64,000 nucleotides of DNA. Source: Thermoplasmata archaeon. Its GTDB lineage: Archaea > Thermoplasmatota > Thermoplasmata > Lutacidiplasmatales > UBA184. Location: NCBI GenBank assembly GCA_035622275.1, contig DASPVQ010000019.1, forward strand, positions 1-64,000. Direction: 5' to 3'. The position numbers were made by a program, and so were the translations under genes. This document shows positions 12,111 through 31,108 of the stretch, piece after piece. Position 1 is the first letter of the stretch, and each line of letters starts with the position of its first letter. The notes beneath the pieces were generated by a model. It ran no database searches and was not told where the DNA came from. It worked only from the letters and a program-made list of their open reading frames with translations.

Positions 12111-15100
12111 CTATCCGGCGGGTGGGTCGCGGCGGGGCTCGGGCGGCCGACGTCGGCGGGTGGCGACCAGGGCGACCGCGAGCAACCCTATCGCGACGAG
12201 CGCCGCGATGGCCACGAGCTCGGCCAGCCCGAGGCCGAAGTACGTCGGGGCCGGCGGGGGCGCGGTCGCGTTCGCGCTGAAATTGATCGCGACGGTGACC
12301 GGCGCGCCCTCCACCGGGAACGAGCCGCTCGCCGGCGAGACCGTGAACCCGGCGGAGACGCCGGTGATAACGAAGTGGTGGGTGCCGTTGGGGAACTCGA
12401 GATAGCTCGTGACCGCCGGGCCGCTCTCGTAGATCTGCCCGTCCACCGACAGGTTCCAGTCGACGACCTCGCCGGCGGGGCCGAGGACGTGGAAGGTCAC
12501 GCCGAAGAGGACCAGGTGGAACGTGATCGGCACCCGGTTCGTGCCCACGGCGACGTCGACCGAGGCCACGTACTCCGGGGGGGCCCAGCTCGCGTTCCCG
12601 TCCGTGACGGTGAAGTCGTAGAGCCCGACCGTCAGCGTCTGCTCGATCTCGGTGCCCGAGCTCGAAAGCCGGGGACCGCCGGTGACGTTGATGAACCAGC
12701 TCGTCCCGGTCGGCAGGTCGCTCTCGACGAACAGCACCGTCCCCGTCGCGGGCGTGATCGCGAGATCGATGTAGACGGTAGCGCCGACGACGCGGAAGCT
12801 GCCGTTGTCCGGTGAGATCACGACGTTCGGGTCGCTCTCGCTCGCGGCGAACCCGTAGAGCCCCGCGACCAGGGTGGTCGAGATCGTGAGATCGGTCCCC
12901 GGGGCTTCGAGCGAGAGTCCGGTGCTGAGGTTGACGAACCAGCTCGTGTCGAGCGGGGCGCCGGTCTCGTTGAACTGGACGGTCTGGGTCTCGGGCACGA
13001 CGCCCTCGTACTGCGCGACCCCCTGCGTCGTGCTGCCGAGCCCGTACTGGAGCTGGTAGACATTCCCGCCGACCTGGGCGTAGGTGAGGTTGCTCGAGCT
13101 CTCCCCGGTCTGGGTGAAGGACGGCGTCACGAGCTCGGTGGCGGCGGCGAGGAACTGGCCGACGCCGCTCGGCTCGATCCAGGCGGACAGCGTTCCGCCG
13201 GTCGGCGGCAGGAAGTTGCCGATCCCGTAGCTGGGACCGCCGACCAACCCGAACTGAGGCGCCAGGAACCCGCTGAGGTTCGCGGGCACGCCGGCGTACG
13301 GCCCGTTCGTATACCACGTGCCTTCCCACGAGAACGTCGCGTTGAGGCTGCCGAGGATGTACGACGCGCCGGGAACGGGGAGCGAGAGCGCCGGCGTGCC
13401 CGGCGCGCCGAAGGAGAACGTGACGCTCTGGGTGTCAAAGCCGCCGGGATTCGACAGCGAGGTGGTGAGATTGAGGTCGAGCGGCAGCGGCTCGATCAGG
13501 CCCGAGACGGGGAAGTTGTACTCGTAGCCGGCGAGCGCCGGATAGATTCCCCAGAACGGATACACCACCCAGCCGCTGAAGTTCATCGCCCAGTCGCCCG
13601 GGGTCCCGCTGATGTAGATGACGTTCTGGATCCAATAGATCGGGGCGCCGAGGCTGTCGGCGACGAAGAAGTTCTGCTGCGTCGAGGCGTTGAAGTAGGT
13701 GTTGATCCCGCCGCCGACGAACGAGGGCAGCGTGGAGGTCACGGCCAGGCCGGTCAGGTCGAGTCGGTCCTGGAGGGCCGTGAGGTGGCCCTTCACGCCG
13801 TCGGAGCTGACGCTGAGCACGTAGATCGTGTAGTTGTAGGCGTCCAGCGACCCCCATCCGGTGACGAGGCTGTAGCCGGTCCGCGCGGCCTCGGCATAGT
13901 TCGAGCCGTAGAGGACGTCCTGGAAGGGGCGCGCGGGCAGGCTCGAGTTGTACTGCGGGACCGCGTAGTCCCCCGTGGTCGGCGTCGTCGGGATCGGCGT
14001 GTACTCGACGTTCGCGATGCGGTAGACGTTCGGATCGAGGAATCCCACCGCCGGGTCGTGGTGCACGAGCAGCGCCCGGTCGATCGTCGCGATCAATCCC
14101 GCCGCGAGGGGCGTCGCCACGCTGGTCCCGGCGGCGAAGTAGAACACCCCGCCGTGGGTGGCGTTCGTCGCATTGAACCGTTCGCCGTTGACGCTGAACG
14201 TCACGAGCGTGTCGTTGGCGAGGCCGGCGATGTCGGGGACGCCGCGACCGGCACCCCCGATCACGACGTTCGCCGACGTCGTCCGCTGCCAGGACGGCTC
14301 GGGAAAGACGGAGCTGATCCCGCCGGTCGAGCCGACCGGGTCGCCGTGAGTGTAGCCGACCGACTCGTTCCAGACGGTCTGATTCTGGAGCTCGAGGGTC
14401 GTGGCGTTGAGGGTGACTACCGTCCCACCGACGGCCGTCATCCCGAACGTGCTGTAGGCCATGGAGGCCGGGAACTCCGTCCAGTCGGGTCCTCCCACGT
14501 ACTTCGAGCTCGACTTGCTGTCATCGGAGTCACCGCTGGCGGCGAGCACCGTGATCCCGCGTGCCTGGGCTTGTTCGAGCGAGTCCATCCAGGCGGTGTC
14601 GTTGAGGTCCGGCTCCCCCCAGGAGTTCGAGATGACGGAGACGTTCTTCAGCCCCGACTCGGAGGCGTTCGGGCTGAGGGCGAAGGCGATGGCGTCATCG
14701 AAGTCGGCCTCGGTCCGCGCTGCATCGGGAACGTAGATGTTGTAGAGATGCGCGCCCGGCGCGGTGGATCCCGCCATCTCCAGGTCCAGGGTGTTCTCGA
14801 ACACCGCCCCGGTCGTGTCGCACGACGCCTGGGGGCTGGGGTACGGGGCGTCGTGGAGCGGCACCGGGAAGACCTCCGCGTGAGGCTCCCCGGCCGGGAG
14901 CGTCGCGTTGAAGAACGAGCCGATGTCGGACGGGTCGTACGGGCCGACCGCCTCGTTCAGCGAAAGCGAGGAGCAGACCGAAGAGTCGTTCGTCGCCCCG
15001 TACTCTCCGCTCCAGAGGATCGTCGCGATCGTCTGGTTCGTGGGGAATCCCGAGGTGTTGAACAGCGACTGCTCGTCGTAGGCGACCTGGAAGTCGGGCG

Positions 15101-15860
15101 CGTACTCGTACTGGATCGGACCGGCCTGAGCCGGCGCGAGGAACCCGTCCTGCACCAGCCGCGACGGGCTCGCGGCCGCGGGCGCCGTGGAGGAGCGCTC
15201 GAGCGAGAGCGTGGTCGCGAGCAGCGCGGTGCGGGTACCGAGTCCCGATACCTGGTCGACCGACGCCCCGAACGCCTCGGGCAGCGTAGGGCTGCCGGCC
15301 GGCGCGACGTAGCTCGACCCACCCGAGGCGTAGGTCCGGAGGGTCGTCCCGAAGATCTGGGCGAGCACGCTCGGGGCGGCCGTGAACCCGATGCCCGCGC
15401 GATCGCTGAACGTTTGCAGATCCTGCACCGGGAAGGACTCGAAGTACTCGAGCGCGGTCGCGTAGGCGGCGGGGGAGGGAGCGTACCTCGCCGAGTACTC
15501 GGGAGCCGTCAGGTACTCATGGTACTCCGGCGACGATGGGTCGCTGAGCGCGGCGAGGAAGACGCGCAGGGCCGACTGGTTCGATGGCGCGAAGGACACG
15601 AACACGCTCTGCGCTCCGCTCGGGGAGACGTCGGTCGGAACCGCGCCGAGCGTCGGACGGTCGCTCGGGAGCAGCGGCACGGCGGCTCGGGGCCCCTGCT
15701 CCAGCGCGGCGAGCGGTGGCACGAGGAGTCCATGAATCGGTTCGGTCGACGCGCCGACCGCGACGATCGCAGCCGAGCCGGCGGCGGTGCTCAGGACGAG
15801 GATCGCGAGCGCCAGAAGGGTCGAGACCCTCGCACGAACTCGACGCTCGGTTCCGATCAC
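12111..15860 (-). CDS. Secreted, membrane-anchored sedolisin (S53 peptidase) with surface repeats
   Basis: 1,249 residues. An N-terminal hydrophobic segment (about residues 12-36) is a signal peptide or anchor; a pro-kumamolisin-like activation domain follows to about residue 200. The S53 catalytic domain shows Glu355 and Asp359 in ENTLDLEM, the oxyanion aspartate in ASGDSDD and Ser580 in GTSVATP. After it come beta-rich regions and at least three degenerate repeats beginning with F-x-E-x-x-L-P-x-G-T-S-W-F-V-N-V, a repeat type frequent in Thermoplasmatota cell-surface proteins. A C-terminal membrane helix and an Arg/Pro tail anchor it. It likely degrades extracellular protein at acid pH. Start is a GTG about 57 nt after a TATA-like element. 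Confidence 0.92.
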   Translation of the reverse strand: MIGTERRVRARVSTLLALAILVLSTAAGSAAIVAVGASTEPIHGLLVPPLAALEQGPRAAVPLLPSDRPTLGAVPTDVSPSGAQSVFVSFAPSNQSALRVFLAALSDPSSPEYHEYLTAPEYSARYAPSPAAYATALEYFESFPVQDLQTFSDRAGIGFTAAPSVLAQIFGTTLRTYASGGSSYVAPAGSPTLPEAFGASVDQVSGLGTRTALLATTLSLERSSTAPAAASPSRLVQDGFLAPAQAGPIQYEYAPDFQVAYDEQSLFNTSGFPTNQTIATILWSGEYGATNDSSVCSSLSLNEAVGPYDPSDIGSFFNATLPAGEPHAEVFPVPLHDAPYPSPQASCDTTGAVFENTLDLEMAGSTAPGAHLYNIYVPDAARTEADFDDAIAFALSPNASESGLKNVSVISNSWGEPDLNDTAWMDSLEQAQARGITVLAASGDSDDSKSSSKYVGGPDWTEFPASMAYSTFGMTAVGGTVVTLNATTLELQNQTVWNESVGYTHGDPVGSTGGISSVFPEPSWQRTTSANVVIGGAGRGVPDIAGLANDTLVTFSVNGERFNATNATHGGVFYFAAGTSVATPLAAGLIATIDRALLVHHDPAVGFLDPNVYRIANVEYTPIPTTPTTGDYAVPQYNSSLPARPFQDVLYGSNYAEAARTGYSLVTGWGSLDAYNYTIYVLSVSSDGVKGHLTALQDRLDLTGLAVTSTLPSFVGGGINTYFNASTQQNFFVADSLGAPIYWIQNVIYISGTPGDWAMNFSGWVVYPFWGIYPALAGYEYNFPVSGLIEPLPLDLNLTTSLSNPGGFDTQSVTFSFGAPGTPALSLPVPGASYILGSLNATFSWEGTWYTNGPYAGVPANLSGFLAPQFGLVGGPSYGIGNFLPPTGGTLSAWIEPSGVGQFLAAATELVTPSFTQTGESSSNLTYAQVGGNVYQLQYGLGSTTQGVAQYEGVVPETQTVQFNETGAPLDTSWFVNLSTGLSLEAPGTDLTISTTLVAGLYGFAASESDPNVVISPDNGSFRVVGATVYIDLAITPATGTVLFVESDLPTGTSWFINVTGGPRLSSSGTEIEQTLTVGLYDFTVTDGNASWAPPEYVASVDVAVGTNRVPITFHLVLFGVTFHVLGPAGEVVDWNLSVDGQIYESGPAVTSYLEFPNGTHHFVITGVSAGFTVSPASGSFPVEGAPVTVAINFSANATAPPPAPTYFGLGLAELVAIAALVAIGLLAVALVATRRRRPPEPRRDPPAG

Positions 15861-18474: not shown

Positions 18475-19215
18475 ATGACGGGCGCGCCGTGGGAGATCTA
18501 CGAGGGCGAGCGGTTCCGGGACGAGCTGACGAAGTTCAAGATGGCGAACCACCCGTTCAAGACGCACCCGTTCTTCGCCCGCATCGAGCGCGGAGAGGTG
18601 CCGCGCCCGCTCCTCGCGGCCTGGGTCCAGCAGTTCTACCCGTGGCTCGCGTCGGTCCCCATCGCGATGGCCGAGCGGTTCTCGAACTGCTCGTGGGAGC
18701 CGGCGAACGACCGCTACCGTCGCATGATCCTCGACCAGCTCGTGGAGGAAGCCGGTGACCCGAAGGGCAAGGAACCCGGCCACCCGGAGCTCTGGCTCCG
18801 GTTCTGCGAGGGGCTCGGGGTACCACGCGCCGAGGTGCAGTCGGCACCGCTGCTGCCGAGCACCATGGTCGCGATCGACGACTTCCTCTACACGAACCGG
18901 ATCAATCCATTCTACGTCTCGGCGGCGGGCTCCTCCGAACCGCCGAACGTCGAACTGTGCGCTCGGCTGCTGCCCGCCTTCCGCCGGCACTACCAGGTCG
19001 ACGAGGACCACCTCGAGTACTACCGACTGCACGTCACGGCGGATGTGGAGCACAGCGAGTGGATCGGCCAGATCGTCGCCGGCTTCGCCTCCTCGACCCC
19101 CGTCCGCAAGCAGATGTGGGACCAGATGCTGCGCGGCTTCTCGATCCACGCACTGCTGGTCGACGGCGTCCTTGCGGCGGCGAACGGCCAGCCCGCCCGA
19201 GTGAAGCATAAATAA
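18475..19215 (+). CDS. Haem-oxygenase-fold diiron protein (PqqC/TenA/CADD-like)
   Basis: 246 residues, all alpha. Metal-ligand motifs of the haem-oxygenase-like diiron group are visible: E-E-A-G-D (about residue 91) with a later H-P-E-L-W, and toward the end Y-Y-R-L-H...D-V-E-H-S-E-W, i.e. H-x(n)-D-x2-H. The fold is shared by PqqC, TenA and CADD; CADD makes a para-aminobenzoate precursor from tyrosine. The last four codons overlap the TATA box of the downstream aromatic operon (19207-19217). Position next to the aromatic pathway suggests work on an aromatic amino acid or product, but this is only inference. Confidence 0.78.
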   Translation: MTGAPWEIYEGERFRDELTKFKMANHPFKTHPFFARIERGEVPRPLLAAWVQQFYPWLASVPIAMAERFSNCSWEPANDRYRRMILDQLVEEAGDPKGKEPGHPELWLRFCEGLGVPRAEVQSAPLLPSTMVAIDDFLYTNRINPFYVSAAGSSEPPNVELCARLLPAFRRHYQVDEDHLEYYRLHVTADVEHSEWIGQIVAGFASSTPVRKQMWDQMLRGFSIHALLVDGVLAAANGQPARVKHK

Positions 19216-19217
19216 TA
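19207..19217 (+). promoter_or_regulatory. TATA box of the aro/trp operon leader
   Basis: CATAAATAATA, the strongest A/T island in the region, at the end of the haem-oxygenase-fold gene. Its centre is 26 nt before an ATG at 19238, the spacing for a leaderless transcript that begins with the leader peptide and not with the first enzyme gene at 19412. Confidence 0.75.
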
Positions 19218-19237
19218 GGAACGGGCTCGAGGGAGCG

Positions 19238-19309
19238 ATGGCAGACCGGGGCGGCCGCTCGATCATGGCGCGGCCGGGCCTGCGGGCTGCCGGGGCCTGG
19301 CTCTGGTGA
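19238..19309 (+). CDS. Putative tryptophan leader peptide (23 codons)
   Basis: ATG at 19238, TGA at 19307-19309. The peptide is basic and Gly/Ala-rich and ends Ala-Trp-Leu-Trp-stop, so two of the last three codons are TGG. It starts where the TATA box at 19207-19217 predicts transcription to begin. It lies 102 nt upstream of a 15-gene operon whose only amino acid product is tryptophan, and is followed by GC-rich hairpins and a TTTT run. This is the layout of a bacterial trp leader; the role is inferred and not shown. Confidence 0.5.
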   Translation: MADRGGRSIMARPGLRAAGAWLW

Positions 19310-19311
19310 AC

Positions 19312-19356
19312 GGGAGGCGCCGGGAGGGCGCCCCCCAGCGTGCCCACCACGCTTTT
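19312..19356 (+). promoter_or_regulatory. Attenuator-like hairpins behind the leader peptide
   Basis: Hairpin A: GGCGCC (19316-19321) pairs with GGCGCC (19327-19332) round a five-base loop, extended past one mismatch by three more pairs (19312-19314 with 19334-19336). Hairpin B: AGCGTG (19337-19342) pairs with CACGCT (19348-19353) round CCCAC and runs straight into TTTT (19353-19356). The UGGUG of the last Trp codon and stop (19304-19308) could pair with CACCA (19345-19349), which would disturb hairpin B. The pairings are read from the sequence; function is inferred. Confidence 0.4.
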
Positions 19357-19377
19357 GGGTCGGCCCCTTTCGGTGAC

Positions 19378-19402
19378 CTCCCTTCGGAACGGAACGAAGG
19401 AG
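19378..19402 (+). promoter_or_regulatory. Hairpin covering the Shine-Dalgarno of the first aro gene
   Basis: CTCCCTTCG (19378-19386) can pair with CGAAGGAG (19395-19402), eight pairs with one bulged C and an eight-base loop. The 3' arm contains AAGGAG, the ribosome-binding site for the ATG at 19412. When folded it would hide that site. Confidence 0.45.
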
Positions 19403-19411
19403 AAGAAACCG

Positions 19412-20161
19412 ATGTACGGAAAGACGATCCGACTGCGCCGACTGTTCCCGCGGCCGGAATACCGGCTGTTCTCGGTCCCGCTGGACCACGCGCTGTCCAT
19501 GGGACCGATCGACGGCCTGGAGGAGCTCGCCCCCCTCGCGCGCGATCTGCAGGAAGGCGGCGCTGACCTGCTGATCGTGACCAAAGGGGCGGTCCGCGAG
19601 CTCGCCCCGGTCCTGCGACCGTCCACGCGGCTCGGGGTCCACGTCTCGGCCTCGACCAGTCTCGGGCCGAGCTCGAACCACAAGCGTCTCGTCGGCTCCG
19701 CTGAGGAAGCGGTCGCGCTCGGCGCCGACCTACTGTCGGTCCAGGTCAACTTCGGCGTGCCGGAGGAGGGCGACATGCTGACCGACCTCGGCCTCGCGGT
19801 CGACCAGTGCCGAGCGCTCGGCCTCCCGCTCCTGTGCATGGCCTACGTCAAGAAGCCGAGCGGCGGCACCCCGGAGGAGCTGCGCCACGCGGCCCGGGCC
19901 GCCGCGGACCTCGGCGCGGACATCGTCAAGACGAGCTACCCGGGCACGGCCGAGGAGTACGCGCGCCTGTGCCGGACCACCCCGGTGCCGGTGCTCATCG
20001 GCGGCGGCGTGCGGCTCGACGACGACGCCGCGTTCCTTCGGATCGTGGAGGACAGCGTGCGCGCCGGTGGCGCCGGTATCTGCATCGGCCGCAACCTGTT
20101 CCAGCGGCGTCCGGTCGTCCCCCTCGCCCGTCAGATCGCCGCTCTTCTCCACGGGGGATAG
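19412..20161 (+). CDS. aroA': 2-amino-3,7-dideoxy-D-threo-hept-6-ulosonate synthase (ADH synthase)
   Basis: 249 residues, FbaB/DeoC-type aldolase. In the archaeal shikimate route it joins aspartate semialdehyde to 6-deoxy-5-ketofructose 1-phosphate. Evidence: opening R-L-R-R-L-F...F-S-V-P-L-D-H-A-L-S-M-G-P-I-D-G-L, the segment VKTSYPG with the Schiff-base lysine at residue 173, and the C-terminal phosphate-binding pair VLIGGGVR and GGAGICIGRN. I chose ATG 19412 because AAGGAG lies at 19397-19402; the longer in-frame ATG at 19340 has no such site and falls inside the leader hairpins. It is the first gene of the aromatic operon. A fructose-bisphosphate aldolase is the main alternative, but the neighbour DHQ synthase II settles the call. 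Confidence 0.93.
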   Translation: MYGKTIRLRRLFPRPEYRLFSVPLDHALSMGPIDGLEELAPLARDLQEGGADLLIVTKGAVRELAPVLRPSTRLGVHVSASTSLGPSSNHKRLVGSAEEAVALGADLLSVQVNFGVPEEGDMLTDLGLAVDQCRALGLPLLCMAYVKKPSGGTPEELRHAARAAADLGADIVKTSYPGTAEEYARLCRTTPVPVLIGGGVRLDDDAAFLRIVEDSVRAGGAGICIGRNLFQRRPVVPLARQIAALLHGG

Positions 20162-20170
20162 GTCGAGACC

Positions 20171-21202
20171 GTGACGCGGGACCGGGTCACGATCGCGATC
20201 CGCGCCACGGAGCCGACGCTCCGGGCCGCGATCGTGGATCGGGCCCGACGCCGCGGCTTCTCCCGGTTCCACGACGCGCACGCGGAGCCGCTGCGCCCCG
20301 ATCCCGGCGAGGAGGTCGTATTGCGCCGGGGGGATCGCCTCTATCTCACCGGCGCGCCGGAGCCCGGACTCCCGGTGGTCACGGTCGGGGACGAGTCCGC
20401 GCTCGACGCCGCGACCCGTGGTGCCCCGGACCAGGGCGTCCTCGTGATCGAGTGGACGGGCGACCGGGTCATCCCGCTCGAGAACGCGATCGCCTCGCGC
20501 GGCCGCCGCTACGCGCTCTGGGTCTACGCGAGGGGACCGCTCGAGGTGCCCGGGGCGCTCGGTGCGCTCGAACACGGTGCCGACCGGGTGTTCGTGGAGG
20601 TCCGCAGTCCCGAGGAGGTCGACCTGCTCGAGTCCATCGTCGAGGGCCCGCTTCCTTCGCACCTCGACTGGGCGCGGGTGCCGGTCCGGGCGAGCCGACC
20701 CGTGGGGGTCGGAGACCGGGTCATCGTCGACACGACGTCGCTGCTGCGGCCGGCGGAAGGGCTCCTCGTGGGGAGCGCGGCCGCGTTCCTCTTCCACATC
20801 GCGAGCGAGGCCGTCGGCTCGCAGTTCAGCCGGCCCCGACCGTTCCGCGTGAACGCGGGCGCGGCCCACTCCTACGTGCTGATGGCTGACGGCTCGACAC
20901 GCTACCTCTCCGAGCTCGGCGCGGGCGACGCGGTGCTCGTCGCGGAGCCGACCGGCTCGAACCGATCGGTGCGCGTGGGCCGGATCAAGATCGAACGACG
21001 ACCTTTCGTCGTCGTGCACGCGGACGACGCGGGCACCGATCGCACGGTCTTTCTCCAGGAGGCCGAGACCGTCCGGCTCTCGACAGAGTCGGGGCGGATC
21101 GCGACGACCGACCTGCGGGCCGGCGCGGTCGTGCACGGCGTGAAGTTGCCCCCCGCCCGACATCTCGGCCGGGCGATCGAGGAGACGATCGAGGAGCGAT
21201 GA
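20171..21202 (+). CDS. aroB': 3-dehydroquinate synthase II
   Basis: 343 residues, archaeal-type enzyme that oxidatively deaminates and cyclises the ADH synthase product to 3-dehydroquinate; unrelated to bacterial AroB. Typical segments are IEWTGDRVIPLENAIA, the V-R-S-P-E-E-V-D-L-L-E region, VGVGDRVIVDT, GLLVGSAAAFLFH and RPFRVNAGAAHSYV, which matches the family's RPFRVNAGPVHAYV. Starts with GTG ten bases after the ADH synthase stop. Its own stop overlaps the AroDE ATG as ATGA. Confidence 0.96.
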   Translation: MTRDRVTIAIRATEPTLRAAIVDRARRRGFSRFHDAHAEPLRPDPGEEVVLRRGDRLYLTGAPEPGLPVVTVGDESALDAATRGAPDQGVLVIEWTGDRVIPLENAIASRGRRYALWVYARGPLEVPGALGALEHGADRVFVEVRSPEEVDLLESIVEGPLPSHLDWARVPVRASRPVGVGDRVIVDTTSLLRPAEGLLVGSAAAFLFHIASEAVGSQFSRPRPFRVNAGAAHSYVLMADGSTRYLSELGAGDAVLVAEPTGSNRSVRVGRIKIERRPFVVVHADDAGTDRTVFLQEAETVRLSTESGRIATTDLRAGAVVHGVKLPPARHLGRAIEETIEER

Positions 21203-22710
21203 TGGTGAACGCCCCCCGCCTCGTCGTCAGCCTGCCCGCACGGACCGCCGCGGATGCTCGCGCGGAAGCTCGCGAGGCGGCCGATGCGGGCGCGGACCTC
21301 GCCGAGGTCCGGCTCGATCGCTGGGACCCCCTCGAACGAGAGCGCGCCGCTGCCCTCTTCCCGTCCCCCTTGGCGCTGCTGGCGACGCTGCGCTCGCGCG
21401 CGGAGGGGGGCGAGGGCCCGGACGATCCGGCCGAGCGGGCCGCGGCGCTGCGAGCTCTCGCGGACCTCCCCTTCGAGGGGCTCGACCTCGAGGCCGCCCG
21501 GGACCTCGCCCTGCTGCCCACGCTCCCGACGCACCTCGCGGTGCGCATCGTTTCGTCGCACCTGCGGCCGGGGACGGCCGAGTCCGATGTGGTCGGGACG
21601 CTGCGCTCCGCGCTCGGGGGCGAGGCGATCCGCAAGGTCGTGGTTCCGGCCTCCGTCGGCACCTTCCTGCGCGTGCTCCTGCCCCGGATCCCTCCCTCGG
21701 GCGACGGCGCGCGGCTGCTGCTCACCACGGGCGCCTCCGGCGCGCTCTGTCGCGCGTGGGCCGCCCGTCTCGAGTACCCGATCGTGTTCACGAGCCTTCC
21801 CGAGAGGCCCGGAGGCGCTACCCGGCCGACCGTCGAGCCGAGCCAGATCCCGGTCGACCGACTGCGATGGTTCCTGTCCGGAGGCCGCGAGGCGCCGCTG
21901 TTCGGTATCCTCGGGCGACCGGTCGCGCATTCCCAGAGCCCGTACCTGCACGCGCGCTGGATGGAGCGATCCGCGCACCCGGGCCTCTACGTGCCCATCG
22001 AGATCGAGAGCGAGTCGGAGTTCGTGGACGCGCTGCCCGCGCTCGCCGCCGGCGGCTTCCGAGGCCTCAACGTCACCCACCCCTGGAAACCGGTCGCTCT
22101 CGCCGTCGCGAGCCGGGTCACCCGGGCGGCCGAGACGTGCGCGGTCGCCAATCTCCTCACCTTCCGCGAGGGGGAGATCGAGGCGGACAACACCGATCTC
22201 ATCGCGATCCTGCGCCGACTCGGTGAGCTTCGCTCCTCGGACGACTGGGACGGCGGCGAGCTCGCGGTCGTCGGCGCCGGCGGCGCCGCCGCGGCCACCC
22301 TGGCCGCGGCCCGCGAGCTGGGGGCCCGAGCGGGGGTCATCGCCCGCGACACCGCCCGCGCCGCGCCCGTGGCCGCCCAGTTCGGCGCCGAGCTGCTCGA
22401 CCCCGCCCGCCCCCGGCCGTTCCCATTGCTCGTGCACGCGACGCCGGTCGGCCGCCCCGACGACGCGGACCTCGGCGTCGCGATCGCGCCCTGGATCGAC
22501 GAGCGATCGCGGCTGATCGACTGGGTGTACACGCCGGCCCATCCGGTGCTGCGCGAGACGGCCCAACGCCGCGGCGCGGCGTACGAGGACGGCTGGCGGT
22601 TGCTCGTCTACCAGGCCGCTGCGAGCTTCGGCATCTGGTGGGGCGAGGAGCCGGACGAGGCCGAGGTCGCGGCGACGATCGAGGAGGGACCGTGCGCGGT
22701 GTCGGCGTGA
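21199..22710 (+). CDS. aroDE: Fused 3-dehydroquinate dehydratase (type I) - shikimate dehydrogenase
   Basis: 503 residues. Residues 1-~220 are the type I dehydratase; the catalytic His121 lies in SSHLRPG and the Schiff-base Lys146 in RKVVVP. Residues ~233-503 are shikimate dehydrogenase, with G-R-P-V-A-H-S-Q-S-P-Y-L-H for shikimate, NVTHPWK with the catalytic lysine, E-A-D-N-T-D, and the NADP-binding VVGAGGAAAATLAAA. The fusion channels dehydroquinate to shikimate. Such fusions are known from plants and some bacteria and archaea but with varied order; here dehydratase is N-terminal. Start ATG overlaps the previous stop; a second ATG follows directly. Confidence 0.95.
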   Translation: MMVNAPRLVVSLPARTAADARAEAREAADAGADLAEVRLDRWDPLERERAAALFPSPLALLATLRSRAEGGEGPDDPAERAAALRALADLPFEGLDLEAARDLALLPTLPTHLAVRIVSSHLRPGTAESDVVGTLRSALGGEAIRKVVVPASVGTFLRVLLPRIPPSGDGARLLLTTGASGALCRAWAARLEYPIVFTSLPERPGGATRPTVEPSQIPVDRLRWFLSGGREAPLFGILGRPVAHSQSPYLHARWMERSAHPGLYVPIEIESESEFVDALPALAAGGFRGLNVTHPWKPVALAVASRVTRAAETCAVANLLTFREGEIEADNTDLIAILRRLGELRSSDDWDGGELAVVGAGGAAAATLAAARELGARAGVIARDTARAAPVAAQFGAELLDPARPRPFPLLVHATPVGRPDDADLGVAIAPWIDERSRLIDWVYTPAHPVLRETAQRRGAAYEDGWRLLVYQAAASFGIWWGEEPDEAEVAATIEEGPCAVSA

Positions 22711-23567
22711 GCACGGGCGCCATCACGATCGTCAACGCGCTCCCGACCGGCATCGGCTCGGCCGCAGGCATCGAGCTCGCGGTCCGCGCAGAACTGGAGT
22801 TGCGGCCGTCCGGCTCGAGCGAGCGCTGGGACGTTCGGATCGAGCCCCCGACGCGGACACCCCTGGTGATCGAGTCGCTGTCGGAGTCGCTTCGGTGTTT
22901 CGCGCCCGGGAGCTCCGGCCAGGGGGAGCTCTCCCTGGCCTCCGAGGTGCCGGTCGCGCGGGGCCTGAAGAGCTCGAGCGCCGTCAGCTCGGCCGTCGCG
23001 CTCGCGGTCGCGCGGGCGACCGACGCGTCGGTCGGGCCGACCGACATCGCCGCGATCTCCGCCCGGGCGTCGATCGCCGCCGGGGTCAGCGCCACGGGCG
23101 CGTTCGACGACGCGCTCGCGGGCCTCACGAGCGGCATCGTCGTGACGGACAACGAGCGCCGAACTCGCCTCGCCGCCATCCCGCTCGATCCGGACCTTCG
23201 CGTCGCCGTGTACATTCCGGAGCAGACGCACGCCGCGGCGCCCGACCTGCACGCGCGCCTGGCACGGGAGCACGAGGCCGGCCGCCGGGCCGCCGCGGCC
23301 TCCCTGCGCGGCGATTGGGTCGAGGCGATGCGGCAGAACTCGGAGCTGGTCGAGCGCGCCCTGGGCTACGATTACGCGGCGGCGCGCGCGCGGCTGCTCG
23401 ACGCGGGCGCGCTCGCCTGCGGGGTCAGCGGCCTCGGCCCAGCCCTGGCCGCGATCGCACCCAGCGATCGGATCGCATCGGTCGAACGGATGCTTCCGGG
23501 CCCGACCTCGGCGCATCGGAGCCTTCGATTCTCCTCGGACGGCCCCTTCCCGCGGGAGGCACGATGA
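22692..23567 (+). CDS. aroK: Shikimate kinase, archaeal GHMP type
   Basis: 291 residues from the GTG at 22692; unrelated in fold to bacterial AroK. It phosphorylates shikimate with ATP. The GHMP phosphate loop is P-V-A-R-G-L-K-S-S-S-A-V-S-S-A, and the N-terminal I-V-N-A-L-P-T-G-I-G-S-A-A-G-I is typical of archaeal shikimate kinases. C-terminal G-V-S-G-L-G-P-A-L is the third GHMP motif. GAGGAGGG at 22681-22688 favours GTG 22692; GTG 22707, which overlaps the AroDE stop as GTGA, is the alternative. Either way the gene overlaps aroDE. Confidence 0.93.
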   Translation: MRGVGVSTGAITIVNALPTGIGSAAGIELAVRAELELRPSGSSERWDVRIEPPTRTPLVIESLSESLRCFAPGSSGQGELSLASEVPVARGLKSSSAVSSAVALAVARATDASVGPTDIAAISARASIAAGVSATGAFDDALAGLTSGIVVTDNERRTRLAAIPLDPDLRVAVYIPEQTHAAAPDLHARLAREHEAGRRAAAASLRGDWVEAMRQNSELVERALGYDYAAARARLLDAGALACGVSGLGPALAAIAPSDRIASVERMLPGPTSAHRSLRFSSDGPFPREAR

Positions 23568-24835
23568 GCCTGGCGACCGTCCGGCCCGGTCGGATCGAGG
23601 GTTCGATCCAGGCCCCTCCGTCGAAGAGCTACACGCACCGAGCGCTCGTCGTCGGCCACCTTACCCGGCGGCGGTTCTCGGTCGTGCGGCCGCTCGACGC
23701 CGACGATACCCGGGCCACGGCGCGGGCGATCGACGCGCTGGGCTCTCGGGTCTCGCGGGCCCGGGGGGTCTGGCGGATCGTTCCGGATCGAGGCACGGTT
23801 CCGCGACGTCGCTCGATCGACTGCGGCGAGTCCGGCACGACCCTACGGTTCATCGCGGCCCTCGCCGCGCGGAGCGGAACGCGGACCGTCCTGCGGGGGC
23901 GGGGCCGACTCCCCGAGCGACCCCTGGGCGAGCTCCTCGACGCCCTCGCCGCGCTGGGCGCGGAGGTGCGACGACCTGCCGGGCGTCGGACGCTTCCGCT
24001 CACGCTCGTCGGACCGATCCATGGGGGGTCCGTCCGGCTCGACGCCTCCCAGAGCTCGCAGTTCGCCTCCGCGCTCCTGCTCACCCTGCCGACGCTCGGC
24101 GAGGACTCCGAGCTCCGACTCACCGGCACGATCGTCTCGGAGCCGTATCTCGAGGCCACGATCGCGATCCTGCGCCGGCACGGGATACGCCTGCGCCGGT
24201 GGGGCCGGCACTTCTCGATCCCGGGACGGCAGCGCTACGAGGGCCAGCGCTCCCGGGTCCCGGGCGATGCCTCCTCCGCGGCCTACCTCTGGGCGGGCGC
24301 GGCGATCTCGGGGGGTCGCGTGCGAGTTCGCGGCATACCGCCGGACCTGCCGCAGGCGGATCTCGCGGTCCTCGGGCTCCTGCGAGCGCGCGGCGCGAGA
24401 GTGGAGGTACGCTCCGATGGCGCGATCGTCGCGTCGGGTGGGCCCTCGCCGTTCCGGGTCGACCTGACCGCCTGCCCCGACCTGTACCCGCTCGCGGCCG
24501 TCCTCGCGGCCACGGTCCCCGGCGCGAGCTCGCTTCTCGGCGCGGCCCACGTGATCCACAAGGAGTCCGATCGACGCGCCGAGGCGATCCGCCTCGCTGC
24601 CGCGCTCGGAGCGTCGGTCCGGCCGACTCGCAGCGGCCTGCGGATCCGCGGCACCTCCGCGCCCCGTGGATTCCGACTCACCGACCTCGACGACCACCGC
24701 GTGGTGATGAGCGCCGCGGTCGGAGCGCTCGCGGCGGGCACGCCGTCGCACATCGCCGACGCCGGGGCGGTGCGCAAGTCGTTCCCCGGTTTCTGGGACG
24801 CCCTTCGATCGCTCGGGGCGAGCGTGCGCACATGA
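23564..24835 (+). CDS. aroA: 3-phosphoshikimate 1-carboxyvinyltransferase (EPSP synthase)
   Basis: 423 residues, normal length. Adds enolpyruvate from PEP to shikimate 3-phosphate. Seen: the opening A-P-P-S-K-S-Y-T-H-R-A-L, the strongly conserved C-G-E-S-G-T-T-L-R-F, L-P-E-R-P-L-G-E-L, S-S-Q-F-A-S-A-L-L and the late K-E-S-D-R segment followed by D-D-H-R-V-V-M. Both inside-out domain halves are complete. Starts ATGA-overlapped with shikimate kinase and ends overlapping chorismate synthase. Confidence 0.97.
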   Translation: MSLATVRPGRIEGSIQAPPSKSYTHRALVVGHLTRRRFSVVRPLDADDTRATARAIDALGSRVSRARGVWRIVPDRGTVPRRRSIDCGESGTTLRFIAALAARSGTRTVLRGRGRLPERPLGELLDALAALGAEVRRPAGRRTLPLTLVGPIHGGSVRLDASQSSQFASALLLTLPTLGEDSELRLTGTIVSEPYLEATIAILRRHGIRLRRWGRHFSIPGRQRYEGQRSRVPGDASSAAYLWAGAAISGGRVRVRGIPPDLPQADLAVLGLLRARGARVEVRSDGAIVASGGPSPFRVDLTACPDLYPLAAVLAATVPGASSLLGAAHVIHKESDRRAEAIRLAAALGASVRPTRSGLRIRGTSAPRGFRLTDLDDHRVVMSAAVGALAAGTPSHIADAGAVRKSFPGFWDALRSLGASVRT

Positions 24836-25917
24836 TGGAGTTCGGCCGGGCGTTCCGGATCTCCATCTTCGGCACCAGCCACGGGCCCGAGGTTGGGGTG
24901 ACCGTCGACGGGGTGCCGCCCGGGACCGCGATCGATCTGAGCCGTATCCAGGCCGAGCTCGACCGGCGTCGACCGGTCGGCCGCCGGCTCGCCACGAAGC
25001 GCCAGGAAGAGGACCGGCTGATCGTCGACGCTGGGATCTCCGACGGGCGCGCGGACGGTGGCACGATCCGAGCGCACGTCGCGAACGAGGACGTCAAGCG
25101 CGAGCCGTACGATCGGCTACGGGACACGCCGAGACCGGGGCACGCCGACTATCCCGCGCGGGTACGCTACGGACCGGATGCGGACCTTTCGGGCGGCGGG
25201 ATCTTCTCCGGCCGCATGACGGTCGGACTCGTGATCGCCGGGGCGATCGCGCGCCAGCTGCTGGGGGCGCGGGGCATCGAGCTCGCGGGATACACCCGTT
25301 CGATCGGGCCGGTCGACGCGACGATCCCCTCGGATCTCGACCTCGGCTCCCTGCGCGCGCGGGCAGGAGCGAACGAGATGGCCAGCCCCGACGCGGGGGC
25401 GGCCGGCCGGATGGAGGCGGCGATCGCGGCGGCGCGTCGCGACGGCGACAGCCTGGGCGGCGTCGTGGAGGTACGCGTCGACGGGCTGCCGACCGGCCTC
25501 GGCGAACCGTTCTTCGATTCGATCGAAGGCGCAATCGCGCACGCGGTCTTCGCGGTGCCCGCGGTCAAGGGGATCGAGTTCGGGGCCGGATTCGCCGCGG
25601 CGCGGATGCGCGGCAGCGAGCACAACGATGCGTTCGCCCTCGTCGGCGGGCAGGTCCGCACGGCGACCAATCATGCGGGCGGGATTCTGGGCGGCCTCGC
25701 CACGGGCATGCCCGTGGTCTTCCGGGCCGTGGTCAAGCCGACCTCCTCGATCGCCCGCCCGCAGTCCACGGTGGACCTCGCCCGCCGCGAGCCGACGACG
25801 ATCGTGGTCGCGGGGCGCCACGACCCGTGCATCGTGCCGAGAGCGGTGGTGGTCCTCGAGTCCGTGGCCGCGATCGCGCTCGCCGACCTCGCGCTGCGGG
25901 GAGGATACCTGCGATGA
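24832..25917 (+). CDS. aroC: Chorismate synthase
   Basis: 361 residues. Converts EPSP to chorismate with reduced FMN. Signatures: FGTSHGPEVG with the first catalytic histidine (H-G), R-R-P-V-G-R-R-L-A-T-K-R, P-G-H-A-D-Y, S-G-G-G-I-F-S-G-R-M-T, the M-R-G-S-E-H-N-D segment with the second histidine, and T-N-H-A-G-G-I-L-G-G. Two in-frame ATG codons stand in tandem (24832 and 24835); the stop of aroA overlaps them. Last gene of the shikimate block; the next two genes supply its aspartate-derived starting material. Confidence 0.97.
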   Translation: MMEFGRAFRISIFGTSHGPEVGVTVDGVPPGTAIDLSRIQAELDRRRPVGRRLATKRQEEDRLIVDAGISDGRADGGTIRAHVANEDVKREPYDRLRDTPRPGHADYPARVRYGPDADLSGGGIFSGRMTVGLVIAGAIARQLLGARGIELAGYTRSIGPVDATIPSDLDLGSLRARAGANEMASPDAGAAGRMEAAIAAARRDGDSLGGVVEVRVDGLPTGLGEPFFDSIEGAIAHAVFAVPAVKGIEFGAGFAAARMRGSEHNDAFALVGGQVRTATNHAGGILGGLATGMPVVFRAVVKPTSSIARPQSTVDLARREPTTIVVAGRHDPCIVPRAVVVLESVAAIALADLALRGGYLR

Positions 25918-26996
25918 GCGAGCGTCGGTACCCGAGCGCCCTCCTGGGCGCGAGCGGCTACATCGGCCAGCACTTCGCCCGGCTGCTCGACGAGCATCCG
26001 ACGTTCGAGCTCGAAGTACTGGGCGCGGGCGAGCGCTCGGCCGGCCGGACCTTGGAGGACGTCTGGCAGCTGGCGGAACCGGCGCCGCCCGGGCTCTCGG
26101 AACAACGGCTCGACCGCGCGACGCCCGGGCGGCTCGCGCGCGCCGGGGTCCGCGTGGTCTTCTCGGCCCTGCCGTCCGGTACGGCGGCCGCGTTCGAGAC
26201 CGAGCTGGTCCGCCGGGGCGTGCATGTCTTCTCCAACGCAGCCGACCATCGGATGGACCCGCAGGTCCCTTTGCTGGTGCCCGAGGTGAACGCCGACCAT
26301 CTCGGTCTCGCCGCCCGGCGGCCGAAGGGCCGCGGCCTCCTCGTCACGAACCCGAACTGCTCGGCGGCGGGACTCGTGCTGGGGATCGCCCCCCTCCTCT
26401 CGCTCCTCGCGCCCCGATCCGTGCACGTGACCACGTACCAGTCGCTCTCGGGCGCGGGCTATCCCGGAGTCCCGTCGCTCGCGATCACCGACAACGTGGT
26501 GCCGCTCATCGCCCACGAGGAGGAGAAGATCGCGCGCGAGTCGGCGCGCATGCTCGGTCGCCGACGCGGCGCCCGGGTCGCGCCACTCCCGATCCCCTTC
26601 GTGACGCAGTGCGCGCGGGTGGCGACCCGGGAAGGCCACCTGGAGGCCGTCACGGTCCAGGCCGCCCGCCGGCCGTCGCTGCGCGAGATCCTGCGACGGC
26701 TTGGCGAGTACGATCCGCTCGCCGGGCGCGCGCTCGCGACGGCCCCCCACCCACCTCTCGAGGTCCGGCCCGAGGCCGATCGACCGCAGCCCCTACGCGA
26801 CCGGTGGGCCGGTCGCCCGACCCGAGCTCGTGGCATGGCCGTGACCGTCGGCCGTTTCCGATGGGAACCGCCCTACCTGCGGTTCTTCCTGCTGGTGCAC
26901 AACGCGGTGCGCGGAGGCGCCGGGGGCTCGATCCTCAACGCGGAGCTCGCGGACGACGGCGGCTGGCTCGCGGTCTCCGGAGGGACCGGCCCGTGA
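25914..26996 (+). CDS. asd: Aspartate-semialdehyde dehydrogenase (archaeal/fungal type)
   Basis: 360 residues. Reduces aspartyl phosphate to aspartate semialdehyde, here a substrate of ADH synthase as well as a threonine/lysine precursor. NADP-binding L-L-G-A-S-G-Y-I-G at the start, catalytic cysteine in NPNCSAAGL, substrate arginine/histidine in VTQCARVATREGH, and a terminal G-A-G-G-S-I-L-N-A-E-L. ATG overlaps the chorismate synthase stop; the stop overlaps the GTG of aspartate kinase. Confidence 0.96.
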   Translation: MSERRYPSALLGASGYIGQHFARLLDEHPTFELEVLGAGERSAGRTLEDVWQLAEPAPPGLSEQRLDRATPGRLARAGVRVVFSALPSGTAAAFETELVRRGVHVFSNAADHRMDPQVPLLVPEVNADHLGLAARRPKGRGLLVTNPNCSAAGLVLGIAPLLSLLAPRSVHVTTYQSLSGAGYPGVPSLAITDNVVPLIAHEEEKIARESARMLGRRRGARVAPLPIPFVTQCARVATREGHLEAVTVQAARRPSLREILRRLGEYDPLAGRALATAPHPPLEVRPEADRPQPLRDRWAGRPTRARGMAVTVGRFRWEPPYLRFFLLVHNAVRGGAGGSILNAELADDGGWLAVSGGTGP

Positions 26997-28309
26997 CGCG
27001 ACGCGCACCCGTGGTCCTCAAGTTTGGGGGCGCGTCTCTCGAGCACCCCGCCCAGGTCGGGAACGACGTGCGGCGCGCCCTCTCGGAGGGCGCGCCGCTC
27101 GTGGTCGTCGTTTCGGCGCGCGAGGGCGTGACCGACCGGCTCGCCGGCGGCCTCGCGCACCCCCGGGCCCGCGCGGAGCATCGCCGGCTCGTCGAGGAGC
27201 TCCGGGCCCGCCATCCCGGTCTGCCGGCCGCCGGGCGCCGCCACCTCGAGCGGCTCGATCGCCTCTTCCGGGAGGTCGAGGAGTCGTCCCAGCGCGACGC
27301 CCCCCTCGCCGATCGCATCCTGAGCCAGGGCGAGCGGCTCGCCGTGCACTGGCTCGCCCGCGAGCTGGCGGCCGACGGCCTGCACGCCGTGCCGATCGAG
27401 GCCGACCATCTCGGTCTGATCACCGACAACGCCTACGGAGCCTCCTGCATCCTGTTCGACCGCTCCGGCCCGGCCGTCCGGCGCGGTCTCGGCCGCCGGC
27501 TGTCGGCCGGGGAGATCCCCGTCGTGACCGGCTACTTCGGCCGGAGCCTCGAGGGTCGCGTCGCGACGCTCGGTCGGGGGGGCTCGGATTACGCCGCCGC
27601 GGGGATCGGCGCGCTCATCGGGGCCTCGCGCGTCGAGCTCGTGAAGCGGCACGTCGCTGTGCTATCGGCGGATCCGCGCGAGGTACCGCAGGCGCGTCCC
27701 ATCCCCGAGCTCTCGTACGAGGAGGCCGAGGAGCTCGCCCAGTTCGGCGCCCGAGTGCTGCATCCCCTCACGATCGAACCCGCCCGGGCGGCGGGCCTGA
27801 CCCTGCGCGTCCGTTCTCTGGAGGATCCGTCGGTCGTCACGACCATCGCCCCGCCCCGGGCGGATCGGCACAATCGGGCTCTGACGATCCTGCGGCCCCT
27901 TCGCCTGTTGCGGCTGCGCGTGCCCGGTGGTCGACAACGGCCCGGGATCGTCGCCGAGGTTTCGCGACGCCTTTCCGAGGCCGGCGTCAACCTCGTCCAG
28001 CTCTACACGTCGTCGGCGCTCCTCTGCCTCGTCCTCGGTCCCCGCGAGGTCGTTCCGGCGATCCGCGCCCTCGCGCCGATCACGCGCGAGGCCGCGGCGA
28101 TGCTGGACGGACCCTACCGCGTGGCCCTGGTGACCGCCATCGGCGACGGCGTGCTCGACGACCTCCATCGGCTGCCCGCGAGCGCGCTGCTCGGCGCGCA
28201 GGGGTTCAGCGCCACGCCCCGCGCCCTGTCGCTGGCGGTCCCACTCGGGCAGGGCGCCCGGATCCTGCGCGAGCTCCATCGGGCGCTCGTCGAGGAGGCG
28301 GCCGTGTGA
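26993..28309 (+). CDS. lysC: Aspartate kinase
   Basis: 438 residues with the N-terminal amino acid kinase domain (K-F-G-G-A-S, then GYFGRSLEGRVATLGRGGSDY) and two C-terminal ACT domains (about residues 300-430). It makes aspartyl phosphate for Asd. The usual T-D-V-D-G-V before ADPR reads V-K-R-H-V-A-V-L-S-ADPR, so the nucleotide-side aspartate is missing; the enzyme may have altered ATP binding, but the kinase core is otherwise intact. The ACT pair normally binds a feedback amino acid; which one here is unknown. GTG start overlaps the asd stop, and its stop overlaps the trpE GTG. Confidence 0.94.
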   Translation: MTRRAPVVLKFGGASLEHPAQVGNDVRRALSEGAPLVVVVSAREGVTDRLAGGLAHPRARAEHRRLVEELRARHPGLPAAGRRHLERLDRLFREVEESSQRDAPLADRILSQGERLAVHWLARELAADGLHAVPIEADHLGLITDNAYGASCILFDRSGPAVRRGLGRRLSAGEIPVVTGYFGRSLEGRVATLGRGGSDYAAAGIGALIGASRVELVKRHVAVLSADPREVPQARPIPELSYEEAEELAQFGARVLHPLTIEPARAAGLTLRVRSLEDPSVVTTIAPPRADRHNRALTILRPLRLLRLRVPGGRQRPGIVAEVSRRLSEAGVNLVQLYTSSALLCLVLGPREVVPAIRALAPITREAAAMLDGPYRVALVTAIGDGVLDDLHRLPASALLGAQGFSATPRALSLAVPLGQGARILRELHRALVEEAAV

Positions 28310-29502
28310 CCGATCCCTGGCGGACCTTCTCGACCGCGGCCGCCGACCGCGACGAGGCCGGCTACTTCGAGATCGGGCCCGCGCGTCGCGCGGGGACCGG
28401 CCGCGCGGTCTGGTTCACCCGGGCGCGCGAGGTGCTCCGCGTCTCGCCCGTTAGCTCGCCTCGAGCACTCGCGGCCCGGGTGGAGCGGCATCTCTCGAGC
28501 GCGCCGGGCCGGGCCGCGATGGGCTTCCTGGGCTTTGACGCGGTCGGATTGTTCGAGCCCTGCCTGCGTTCGTTCCCGAACGGCGATCCGTTCCCCCTCG
28601 GCGCAGTGGCGCTCGTGGACCGCCCGAGCCGGGGACTCGTGCCGCCGCGGCCGAGACTGCGCCCGGTCGCGACGGGGCCCCCGGCCCGGCCGATCTCCGA
28701 CTCGTTGCCGCTCCCCCGCTTCGGCCGAAGCGTCCGGCGACTCATCGAGGAGATCCGCGACGGAGAAGCGTACCAGGTGGTCCTGGCGCATCGTCGGGCC
28801 TGGCGACGGCCGGCGGACCTGCTGACGAGGGCCGGCGCGCTCCGGGCCGCTGAGCGGTACGCCTTCTTCTTCTACCTGCGGCTCGGCGACCTCGAGCTGG
28901 CCGGCGCCTCGCCGGAATCGGTGGTCGAGGTGGAGGGCCGCCGAGCCTACATCAACCCGATCGCGGGCACGATCCCACGCGGGGTTCGGGCGGGACGACG
29001 TCTGCCGCTCGCGATCGACCCGAAGGAGCTCGCCGAGCATCGCATGCTCGTCGACCTCGCACGGAACGACCTCGGGGCCGTGGCGTCGGCCGGCACGGTG
29101 CGGCTCGTCTCCCGGGAGCGGATCGAGCGGTTCGCCCGGCTCGAGCACATCGTCACCCGGGTCCGCGCCGACCTGCCCCGGGGCGTCGGTCCGTGGGAGG
29201 TGCTCGGCTCGACCTTCCCCGCGGGTACCGTCTCGGGCGCGCCCAAGATCCGCGCGACCGAGCTGCTGCGTCGCGAGGAGGCGAGCTGGCGAGGGCCGTA
29301 CGCCGGCACCGTCGGCCTGCTCGAGCCGGGTGGTCGGGCGACGTGGGCGCTCGCGATCCGGACCGGATTTGCGGTGCGCGATCGGCTCTACACCGCCGCC
29401 GGGGCCGGGATCGTACAGCATTCCGAGCCGCTCCGCGAGTTCCACGAAACGCTCACGAAGCTCGCGCTCGTCGAATCCGCGCTCGTGGGAGGGCCGTCGT
29501 GA
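28306..29502 (+). CDS. trpE: Anthranilate synthase component I
   Basis: 398 residues, shorter than bacterial TrpE (about 500) and near archaeal sizes. Uses chorismate and ammonia from TrpG to form anthranilate. Conserved core: R-D-G-E-A-Y-Q-V-V-L, L-A-G-A-S-P-E-S-V-V, N-P-I-A-G-T-I-P-R-G, the E-H-R-M-L-V-D-L-A-R-N-D-L-G motif and P-A-G-T-V-S-G-A-P-K-I-R-A. The LLES motif that binds feedback tryptophan is not obvious in the shortened N-terminus, so feedback may be weak or absent. GTG overlaps lysC; ends overlapping trpG. Confidence 0.96.
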   Translation: MTDPWRTFSTAAADRDEAGYFEIGPARRAGTGRAVWFTRAREVLRVSPVSSPRALAARVERHLSSAPGRAAMGFLGFDAVGLFEPCLRSFPNGDPFPLGAVALVDRPSRGLVPPRPRLRPVATGPPARPISDSLPLPRFGRSVRRLIEEIRDGEAYQVVLAHRRAWRRPADLLTRAGALRAAERYAFFFYLRLGDLELAGASPESVVEVEGRRAYINPIAGTIPRGVRAGRRLPLAIDPKELAEHRMLVDLARNDLGAVASAGTVRLVSRERIERFARLEHIVTRVRADLPRGVGPWEVLGSTFPAGTVSGAPKIRATELLRREEASWRGPYAGTVGLLEPGGRATWALAIRTGFAVRDRLYTAAGAGIVQHSEPLREFHETLTKLALVESALVGGPS

Positions 29503-30080
29503 GGATCCTGCTGATCGATCACGAGGACTCCTTCGTCCACAACGTGGAACAGGCGTTGCGCCGGGAGGGCGCGGACGTCCGGTGCCTGCGGGCGACGGCA
29601 CCGCTGCGCGCGGCCGTTCGCTTCGACCCCGACGCCGTGGTCCTCTCGCCGGGGCCCGGCCACCCCCGTGACCGGCGGATGACAGGGCTCGCGCGCGAAC
29701 TCTTGCGACGCTGGGACGAGGAGCGACCGTTCCTGGGAGTCTGCCTCGGTCACCAGCTCATCGCGGACTTCTACGGCGGCCGGGTCGTTCGGGCCGACGC
29801 GCCGGTCCACGGAGAGACCCGACGCATCCACCACGACGGGCGCGGCCTCTTCGACGGGGTCCCCAACCCCACGGAGGTCGCCCGCTACCACTCGCTCGTG
29901 GTCGATCCCCGCGCCGTGCCCGCGGCCCTCGAGGTGTCGGCCCGCTGCGACGGCACCGTGGTGATGGCCGCCCGGCACCGGCTGCGGCCGGTCGAGTCCG
30001 TGCAGTTCCACCCCGAGTCCTACCTTACCCCGTCCGGGCGGCGCATGTTCCGGAACTTCCTGCACCGGGTGCGCCGATGA
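29499..30080 (+). CDS. trpG: Anthranilate synthase component II (glutamine amidotransferase)
   Basis: 193 residues, class I amidotransferase that supplies ammonia to TrpE. The nucleophile is in FLGVCLGHQLIA, the oxyanion glycines in L-S-P-G-P-G-H-P, and the catalytic histidine/glutamate in SVQFHPESYLT. Opens with I-L-L-I-D-H-E-D-S-F-V-H-N, typical of TrpG/PabA (I-D-N-Y-D-S-F). GTG at 29499 overlaps the trpE stop. Confidence 0.96.
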   Translation: MRILLIDHEDSFVHNVEQALRREGADVRCLRATAPLRAAVRFDPDAVVLSPGPGHPRDRRMTGLARELLRRWDEERPFLGVCLGHQLIADFYGGRVVRADAPVHGETRRIHHDGRGLFDGVPNPTEVARYHSLVVDPRAVPAALEVSARCDGTVVMAARHRLRPVESVQFHPESYLTPSGRRMFRNFLHRVRR

Positions 30081-31108
30081 TCGCGGACCGGCTGCGCCGA
30101 CTGCTCGATCCGCGGCCGCTGAGCTCCGCGGAGGCTCGCGCGCTCTTCGATCGACTGGTCGACGATCGGACGAGCGATGCCGAGCGTGGCGAGATCCTGG
30201 TCGCCCTCGCGGCGCGACCGTCCCGCACCGAGGAGCTCGTGGCGTTCGCCCGGGCGATGCGACGACGTGCGAGGCCCTTCCCCGTGCCCGCCCGGGACCG
30301 CGCGATCGACCTCTGCGGGTCCGGCGGGGCCCGTCGGCCATCGTACAACGTCTCCACGGTGAGCGCCTTCGTGGTCCGCGCGGCGGGCCTCCCGGTCGCG
30401 AAGCACGGCAACCGGAGCCGGGGACTGTGCGGCTCGAGCGACCTGCTCGCCGCCCTCGGGCTGCCGGTCACGTCGACGCCCGAGTTCGCGAGCGCGAGCT
30501 ACCGACGTTACGGCATCGCCTTCCTGCACGCCCCGCTGTTCCATCCCGCGACCGCTGCCGTCGCCACGGCCCGCCGACAGCTCGGCATCCCGACGATCTT
30601 CAACCGGCTCGGTCCCCTCTCCAACCCGGCCGAGCTCCGATGCCAGGTCTCCGGAACGGTCGACGTGCCGGCTGCGATCGGCACGGCGGCCGCCCTGCGA
30701 GCGCTCGGGGTCCGGCGTGGCATCACGATGACCTCGGACGACGGCTGCGATGAGTTCTCGCCCCGCGCGCCGACCTCGATGGTGCACTGGGACGGCACCC
30801 GCGTGCGCCGCCTCCGGCTGGATCCCCAGCGATTCCTCCCGCCCGAGGATCGTCGTGGGAGCTGGGGCGCGCTGCCGCCCCCCGCCGCAGCGGAGCAGGC
30901 CGAACGGCTGCTGGCCGGGTCCGGTGGAGCCCGCCGCGGGGCCGTCCTCCTCACCAGCGGCGCCGCGTTGTGGGTCGCCGGTCGATCGCGCGACCTGGGA
31001 AGCGGCGTCGTGGCCGCGGAGCGGGCGCTCGACGGCGGCGGGGCCGAGCGAATCCTGGAGCAGCTGCGCGAGCTCGCCGGCCGATTCCCGAAACCCGAGG
31101 AGGCGTGA
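30077..31108 (+). CDS. trpD: Anthranilate phosphoribosyltransferase
   Basis: 343 residues. Transfers phosphoribosyl from PRPP to anthranilate. Glycine-rich PRPP site C-G-S-G-G-A-R-R-P-S-Y-N-V-S-T (family GTGGD...NIST, with Gly-Ala replacing Gly-Asp), K-H-G-N-R-S, and the G-P-L-S-N-P segment are present. The aspartate of the usual GTGGD is alanine here, a small departure. Overlaps trpG as ATGA and trpC as GTGA. Confidence 0.94.
   Translation: MIADRLRRLLDPRPLSSAEARALFDRLVDDRTSDAERGEILVALAARPSRTEELVAFARAMRRRARPFPVPARDRAIDLCGSGGARRPSYNVSTVSAFVVRAAGLPVAKHGNRSRGLCGSSDLLAALGLPVTSTPEFASASYRRYGIAFLHAPLFHPATAAVATARRQLGIPTIFNRLGPLSNPAELRCQVSGTVDVPAAIGTAAALRALGVRRGITMTSDDGCDEFSPRAPTSMVHWDGTRVRRLRLDPQRFLPPEDRRGSWGALPPPAAAEQAERLLAGSGGARRGAVLLTSGAALWVAGRSRDLGSGVVAAERALDGGGAERILEQLRELAGRFPKPEEA

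Follow-up and report, generated by a model that had tools for sequence, protein, structure and literature searches.

The aro-trp operon of a Thermoplasmata archaeon is preceded by a short leader frame and a set of RNA helices which probably work together as a ribosome-mediated attenuator that responds to tryptophan and controls how the first gene of the operon is translated. The element lies in a window of 64,000 nucleotides (contig DASPVQ010000019.1), which is the whole stretch of DNA analysed. Comparative sequence and folding support the leader open reading frame (ORF), its Trp codons, the helices that follow and the mutual exclusivity predicted for these helices; tryptophan is probably sensed by the site at which the ribosome stops on the leader. 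Leader-peptide attenuation had already been proposed in a sequence-only reading of this DNA. The comparison supports its leader geometry, Trp codons, GC hairpin and SD-hiding hairpin; the terminator that it included is not supported, and control is more likely to be exerted on translation.

The source genome (~1.73 Mb) belongs to the order Lutacidiplasmatales (described in PMC9287336); its relatives are Thermoplasmata MAGs, including Candidatus Lutacidiplasma. The family that carries the Trp leader consists of soil archaea. The aro-trp cluster comprises 15 genes on the same strand, from dhnA to trpA (19412-34480; Table 1). Several of the operon gene calls fall below the curated NCBIfam cut-offs; the top match is always to the named function. 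Prephenate dehydratase (PF00800) was not found in the source genome (G000) or in four relatives (G001, G018, G110 and G029); consequently, Trp is the likely amino-acid output of the operon, as the sequence-only reading had claimed. In these five genomes phenylalanine synthesis is either missing or proceeds by an unknown route. The CADD/PqqC-like gene that precedes the leader has a counterpart upstream of dhnA in relatives which do not have the leader.

Table 1. Features of the window in and around the putative attenuator
Feature	Position	Strand	Basis or remark
ORF of 1249 aa, resembles large secreted protease	12111-15860	-	Translation only
CADD/PqqC-like gene	18475-19215	+	NCBIfam TIGR04305, under cut-off; 3' end inside the TATA box of the leader
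TATA box ATAAATA	19208-19214	+	Sequence; ~30 nt upstream of the leader ATG
Leader ORF, 23 codons, MADRGGRSIMARPGLRAAGAWLW*, probably leaderless	19238-19309	+	ORF call; conserved in 61 loci
Leader-internal hairpin beside the leader AUG (19240-19244 with 19287-19291; 19246-19248 with 19283-19285)	19240-19291	+	z = -8.4
Sensor codons TGG-CTC-TGG and stop TGA	19298-19309	+	Trp codons fixed, middle codon varies
Segment A (GGGAGGCGCC), begins 2 nt past the stop; partner is B or segment 3	19312-19321	+	A:3 and A:B covary
Segment B, 3' arm of the local GC hairpin A:B (19312-19335)	19327-19335	+	z = -4.6; compensatory change in L242/L243
Long hairpin H1 (antisequestor, ~70 nt), base formed by A and segment 3 (19372-19382)	19312-19382	+	Predicted fold; A:3 z = -5.0
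Hairpin leading into TTTT	~19337-19355	+	Sequence
Sequestor hairpin H2, segment 3 and next bases with the Shine-Dalgarno region (SD AAGGAG, 19397-19402)	19379-19403	+	3:4 z = -4.5
First operon gene, dhnA-type ADH synthase (2-amino-3,7-dideoxy-D-threo-hept-6-ulosonate synthase)	19412-20161	+	NCBIfam PRK07226 and TIGR01949, scores slightly below cut-offs
DHQ synthase II, AroD/AroE fusion, archaeal shikimate kinase, EPSP synthase, chorismate synthase, asd (aspartate-semialdehyde dehydrogenase), aspartate kinase	20171-28309	+	Profile matches
trpE, trpG, trpD, trpC, trpF, trpB, trpA	28306-34480	+	Profile matches

ADH-synthase loci were gathered from GTDB genomes and their upstream regions compared; a covariance model, R1, was then built. 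A search with R1 matched 60 of 400 Thermoplasmata genomes, all of them in the family of the window and distributed over six genera; strict filters were applied to the 400 genomes of the class, and weak matches may be lost. The leader frame recurs in 60 loci besides the window, so that it can be read in 61 loci in all. Its ATG is in frame in every one of them, and insertions and deletions occur only in multiples of three. Most leaders (51) are 23 codons long; lengths of 22, 24 and 21 codons are found in five, three and two loci respectively. This recurrence is far from chance. The sequence-only reading had made its case depend on a short Trp-ending frame being conserved in relatives; the frame is conserved before the operon throughout the family, and in one genus (g24, locus L237) the element is directly upstream of trpE rather than of the ADH-synthase gene dhnA.

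At least two Trp codons are found at the leader end in 60 of the 61 loci, and Trp does not occur elsewhere in any of the 61 frames. The ending is WLW in 44 loci, WSW in six, WAW in three, and WPW and WWW in two each; WW, WSWW, WGW and a single W (L086) occur once each. The codon between the fixed Trp codons can be Leu, Ser, Pro, Ala or Gly, or it can be absent. Both Trp codons persist when the middle codon changes or is lost, a pattern not expected from RNA pairing alone. Upstream of the Trp end, the residues of the leader peptide are not conserved between genera. In L086, the first leader Trp codon (-114 from the dhnA start) is GGG instead of TGG and the remainder is intact; this is either a natural loss or a sequencing error. 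The start position of dhnA in another locus (L077:5001-5003) is ACG, not ATG, which is likewise an error or an unusual start.

The claimed TATA box is present in the window, as is the claimed 23-codon frame. The distance from TATA box to ATG is 28-32 nt wherever it is measurable in relatives, leaving little space for a 5' UTR; this spacing suggests that the leader transcript is leaderless.

The spacer between stop and segment A is 2 nt long in 58 of 62 loci, constant in spacing and variable in sequence. The middle part and the SD region do not align well, so that RNAalifold on a MAFFT alignment yielded little; helix support was instead obtained by a permutation in which each strand was paired with its own or with foreign partners. 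Own strands pair better than foreign ones for A:3, A:B and 3:4 (Table 1) and for B:3 (z = -4.5), and for the control pairings A:4 and B:4 the own strand is no better than foreign. For A:3, the covariation score and the number of paired cells are higher than in any of 500 column shuffles or any slid version. Compensatory changes are seen in L242/L243, where GGGAGGCACC occurs with GGUGCC (B) and GUGCCUCCC (segment 3); in g27, where GGAGGUG occurs with CACCUCC; and in the sequestor of L237 (CCCGUGC/GCACGGG). The helix 3:4, which covers the SD, is found in nearly all loci. The helices after the leader ORF share strands and are, as predicted from folding and covariation, mutually exclusive. Both the GC hairpin and the SD-hiding hairpin of the sequence-only reading are present and conserved; the long alternative hairpin, whose base competes with the SD hairpin, was absent from it.

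The fate of the remaining hairpin bears on the level at which control is exerted. In classical transcription attenuation, ribosome position would set termination by RNA polymerase in the leader, either at a U tract or by a factor acting on untranslated RNA. The window does contain a hairpin trailed by TTTT, which had been read as part of the attenuator, and untranslated operon RNA could terminate secondarily to SD hiding. However, TTTT follows the leader in only five of 53 sequences and at differing positions, and the last conserved hairpin covers the SD with no T tract behind it. The hairpin is present in the window, but its role as a terminator is not supported by the relatives. Since the TTTT 'terminator' is not conserved, translational attenuation is more likely than transcriptional attenuation, and the latter is an unlikely explanation of the element.

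Under translational attenuation, transcription would start at or beside the leader AUG, and a ribosome would enter the 23-codon leader without a 5' UTR. When charged tRNA-Trp is scarce, the ribosome would pause on the first Trp codon and leave segment A, just past the stop, free. Free A could then close the base of the long hairpin and lock segment 3 away, so that the SD of dhnA remains accessible and translation of the operon proceeds. When Trp is plentiful, the ribosome would reach the stop and cover A, and segment 3 would be free; it would pair with the SD site and shut the operon.

A ribosome is assumed to hide ~12 nt past its A-site codon, the value for bacteria. With this footprint, a ribosome at the first Trp codon would leave A free and would cover it only on reaching the second Trp codon or the stop; the expected result is ON under Trp starvation and OFF under plenty. 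The RNA was folded from successive 5' ends, mimicking a ribosome that hides all upstream RNA. The mean predicted probability that the SD is unpaired is ~0.54 with the RNA free from +1 after the stop and ~0.18-0.20 with the first 7-10 nt hidden. Shuffling A or the whole region removes this step (differences of 0.06 and 0.01 versus 0.35). A strong SD switch is predicted for 33 of the 53 sequences, whereas several distant sequences, L234, L236 and L243 among them, show a weak one or none; the detailed course of the switch is accordingly less certain than the general type of mechanism. In addition, the local hairpin A:B would leave segment 3 available for SD hiding, and a ribosome stalled on the first Trp codon would not give a purely ON state.

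A further helix, absent from the sequence-only reading, lies within the leader itself. The start region of the leader pairs with a segment 7-16 nt upstream of the first Trp codon; here own strands pair 2.8 kcal/mol better than foreign ones (z in Table 1), and shifted-window controls were negative. This helix would hide the leader AUG once the pre-Trp segment has been made, and we infer that the leader is read chiefly by the ribosome that loads first on the nascent RNA. It is quite possible, at a little below even chances, that the attenuator is decided during transcription: the leaderless AUG would be open only until the pre-Trp segment folds back, and the Trp level would be read chiefly by this first ribosome. 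If so, control would depend on the coupling of transcription and translation in archaea.

The leader-internal helix can also explain the weakly conserved residues before the Trp codons without a function of the peptide. This bears on the alternative that the leader is an arrest peptide like TnaC, which would sense free tryptophan in the ribosome tunnel. The Trp residues stand immediately before the UGA stop in all loci, a point in favour of such a peptide, but the lack of conservation of its other residues between genera and the RNA helix behind their weak similarities make this highly improbable. Moreover, arrest at the stop under Trp excess would hide A, and would fit shutdown of the operon only together with the same RNA switch. 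An RNA element that senses a protein or ligand, with the small frame incidental, is scarcely credible: the highly conserved GC-rich 5' strand speaks for it, but the ATG is in frame in all 61 loci, indels occur only in threes and the Trp codons persist amid changing RNA, and 19100-19500 gave no match to any Rfam family at E values up to 1.

The presence of the putative attenuator follows that of tryptophan genes. Among family genomes at least 90% complete, 23 have both the leader and trpB1, three have trpB1 only and ten lack both; in no genome is the leader present without trpB1 (Fisher p ~1e-6, relatedness of the genomes being ignored). The three genomes with trpB1 in which no leader was found all belong to g24, and their trpE lies downstream of another gene. 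G018 (L094) has kept the ADH-synthase gene and has neither trpB nor trpE; such leader-less family genomes, with ADH synthase but without trpB and trpE, suggest that some members have lost Trp synthesis and kept chorismate synthesis. In the ADH-synthase tree, the midpoint root has leader-bearing rows on either side, and a minimum of four gains or losses is required.

Near trpE and trpB of other Thermoplasmata families, no Trp leader was found within flanks of ~1.5 kb, a range that does not reach distant operon starts. A scan of G001 (1.6 Mb, all but <1 kb) returned 13 ATG frames of 6-45 codons at a leader-like distance from a TATA-like box, of which the Trp leader alone has a Trp-rich end upstream of biosynthetic genes. 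Leaders for His, Leu, Ile, Phe or similar amino acids were not found in this near-complete scan of TATA-linked short ORFs, which would pass over any leader that has no such box. A second match, with WW near its end (AWWSSVPS), overlaps out of frame the start of a large secreted-protein ORF and was taken as chance. The TATA-to-ATG histogram of G001 is too sparse to give a frequency of leaderless genes.

Leader-peptide attenuation is a textbook bacterial mechanism. No case of an archaeal amino-acid leader peptide or attenuator was found in the titles and abstracts of the open-licence literature searched; as far as this literature shows, Trp sensing by ribosome position is described only in bacteria. 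If the proposed mechanism is true, the element is a family-wide archaeal case which joins leaderless initiation to SD hiding, and control by ribosome sensing has arisen or survived beyond the bacteria. It would also be a natural reporter for whether archaeal ribosomes track RNA polymerase closely, a question on which 'nearly nothing is known' (PMC8576121).

The element resembles several known systems in part. Translational attenuators of the ermC and cat type work by SD hiding and respond to ribosome-stalling antibiotics. They share with the element the proposed role of a stalled leader ribosome in keeping the downstream ribosome site open; in contrast, the codons in the window indicate an amino acid as the signal, and the first hairpin would be kept intact, not melted, by the stalled ribosome.

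Bacterial trp leader attenuators, such as E. coli trpL and those of Corynebacterium and Streptomyces (PMC1262725), also have a short ORF that carries Trp codons and precedes trp genes, RNA helices that exclude one another, and a sensor presumed to be the position of the ribosome; such bacterial analogues appear in a survey of Actinobacteria (PMC1262725). Unlike these, the element in the window is archaeal, its leader is apparently leaderless and its Trp codons abut the stop; it ends in SD hiding without a conserved terminator, its sequences are different and it has no Rfam match. The LEU element of actinobacterial leuA likewise combines a leader frame rich in codons for the product with a structure that involves the SD, but it is a bacterial pseudoknot in which Leu codons pair with the SD, and its mechanism is unsettled (PMC1262725).

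Trp control in archaea has been described as little known beyond the TrpY repressor, to which Tar has been added (PMC6737238). TrpY of Methanothermobacter and Tar (TK0271) of Thermococcus control archaeal trp or aromatic genes, as the element is proposed to do (PMC6737238). In contrast to the element, both are DNA-binding proteins which act on transcription; the element would be an RNA that is read by ribosomes.
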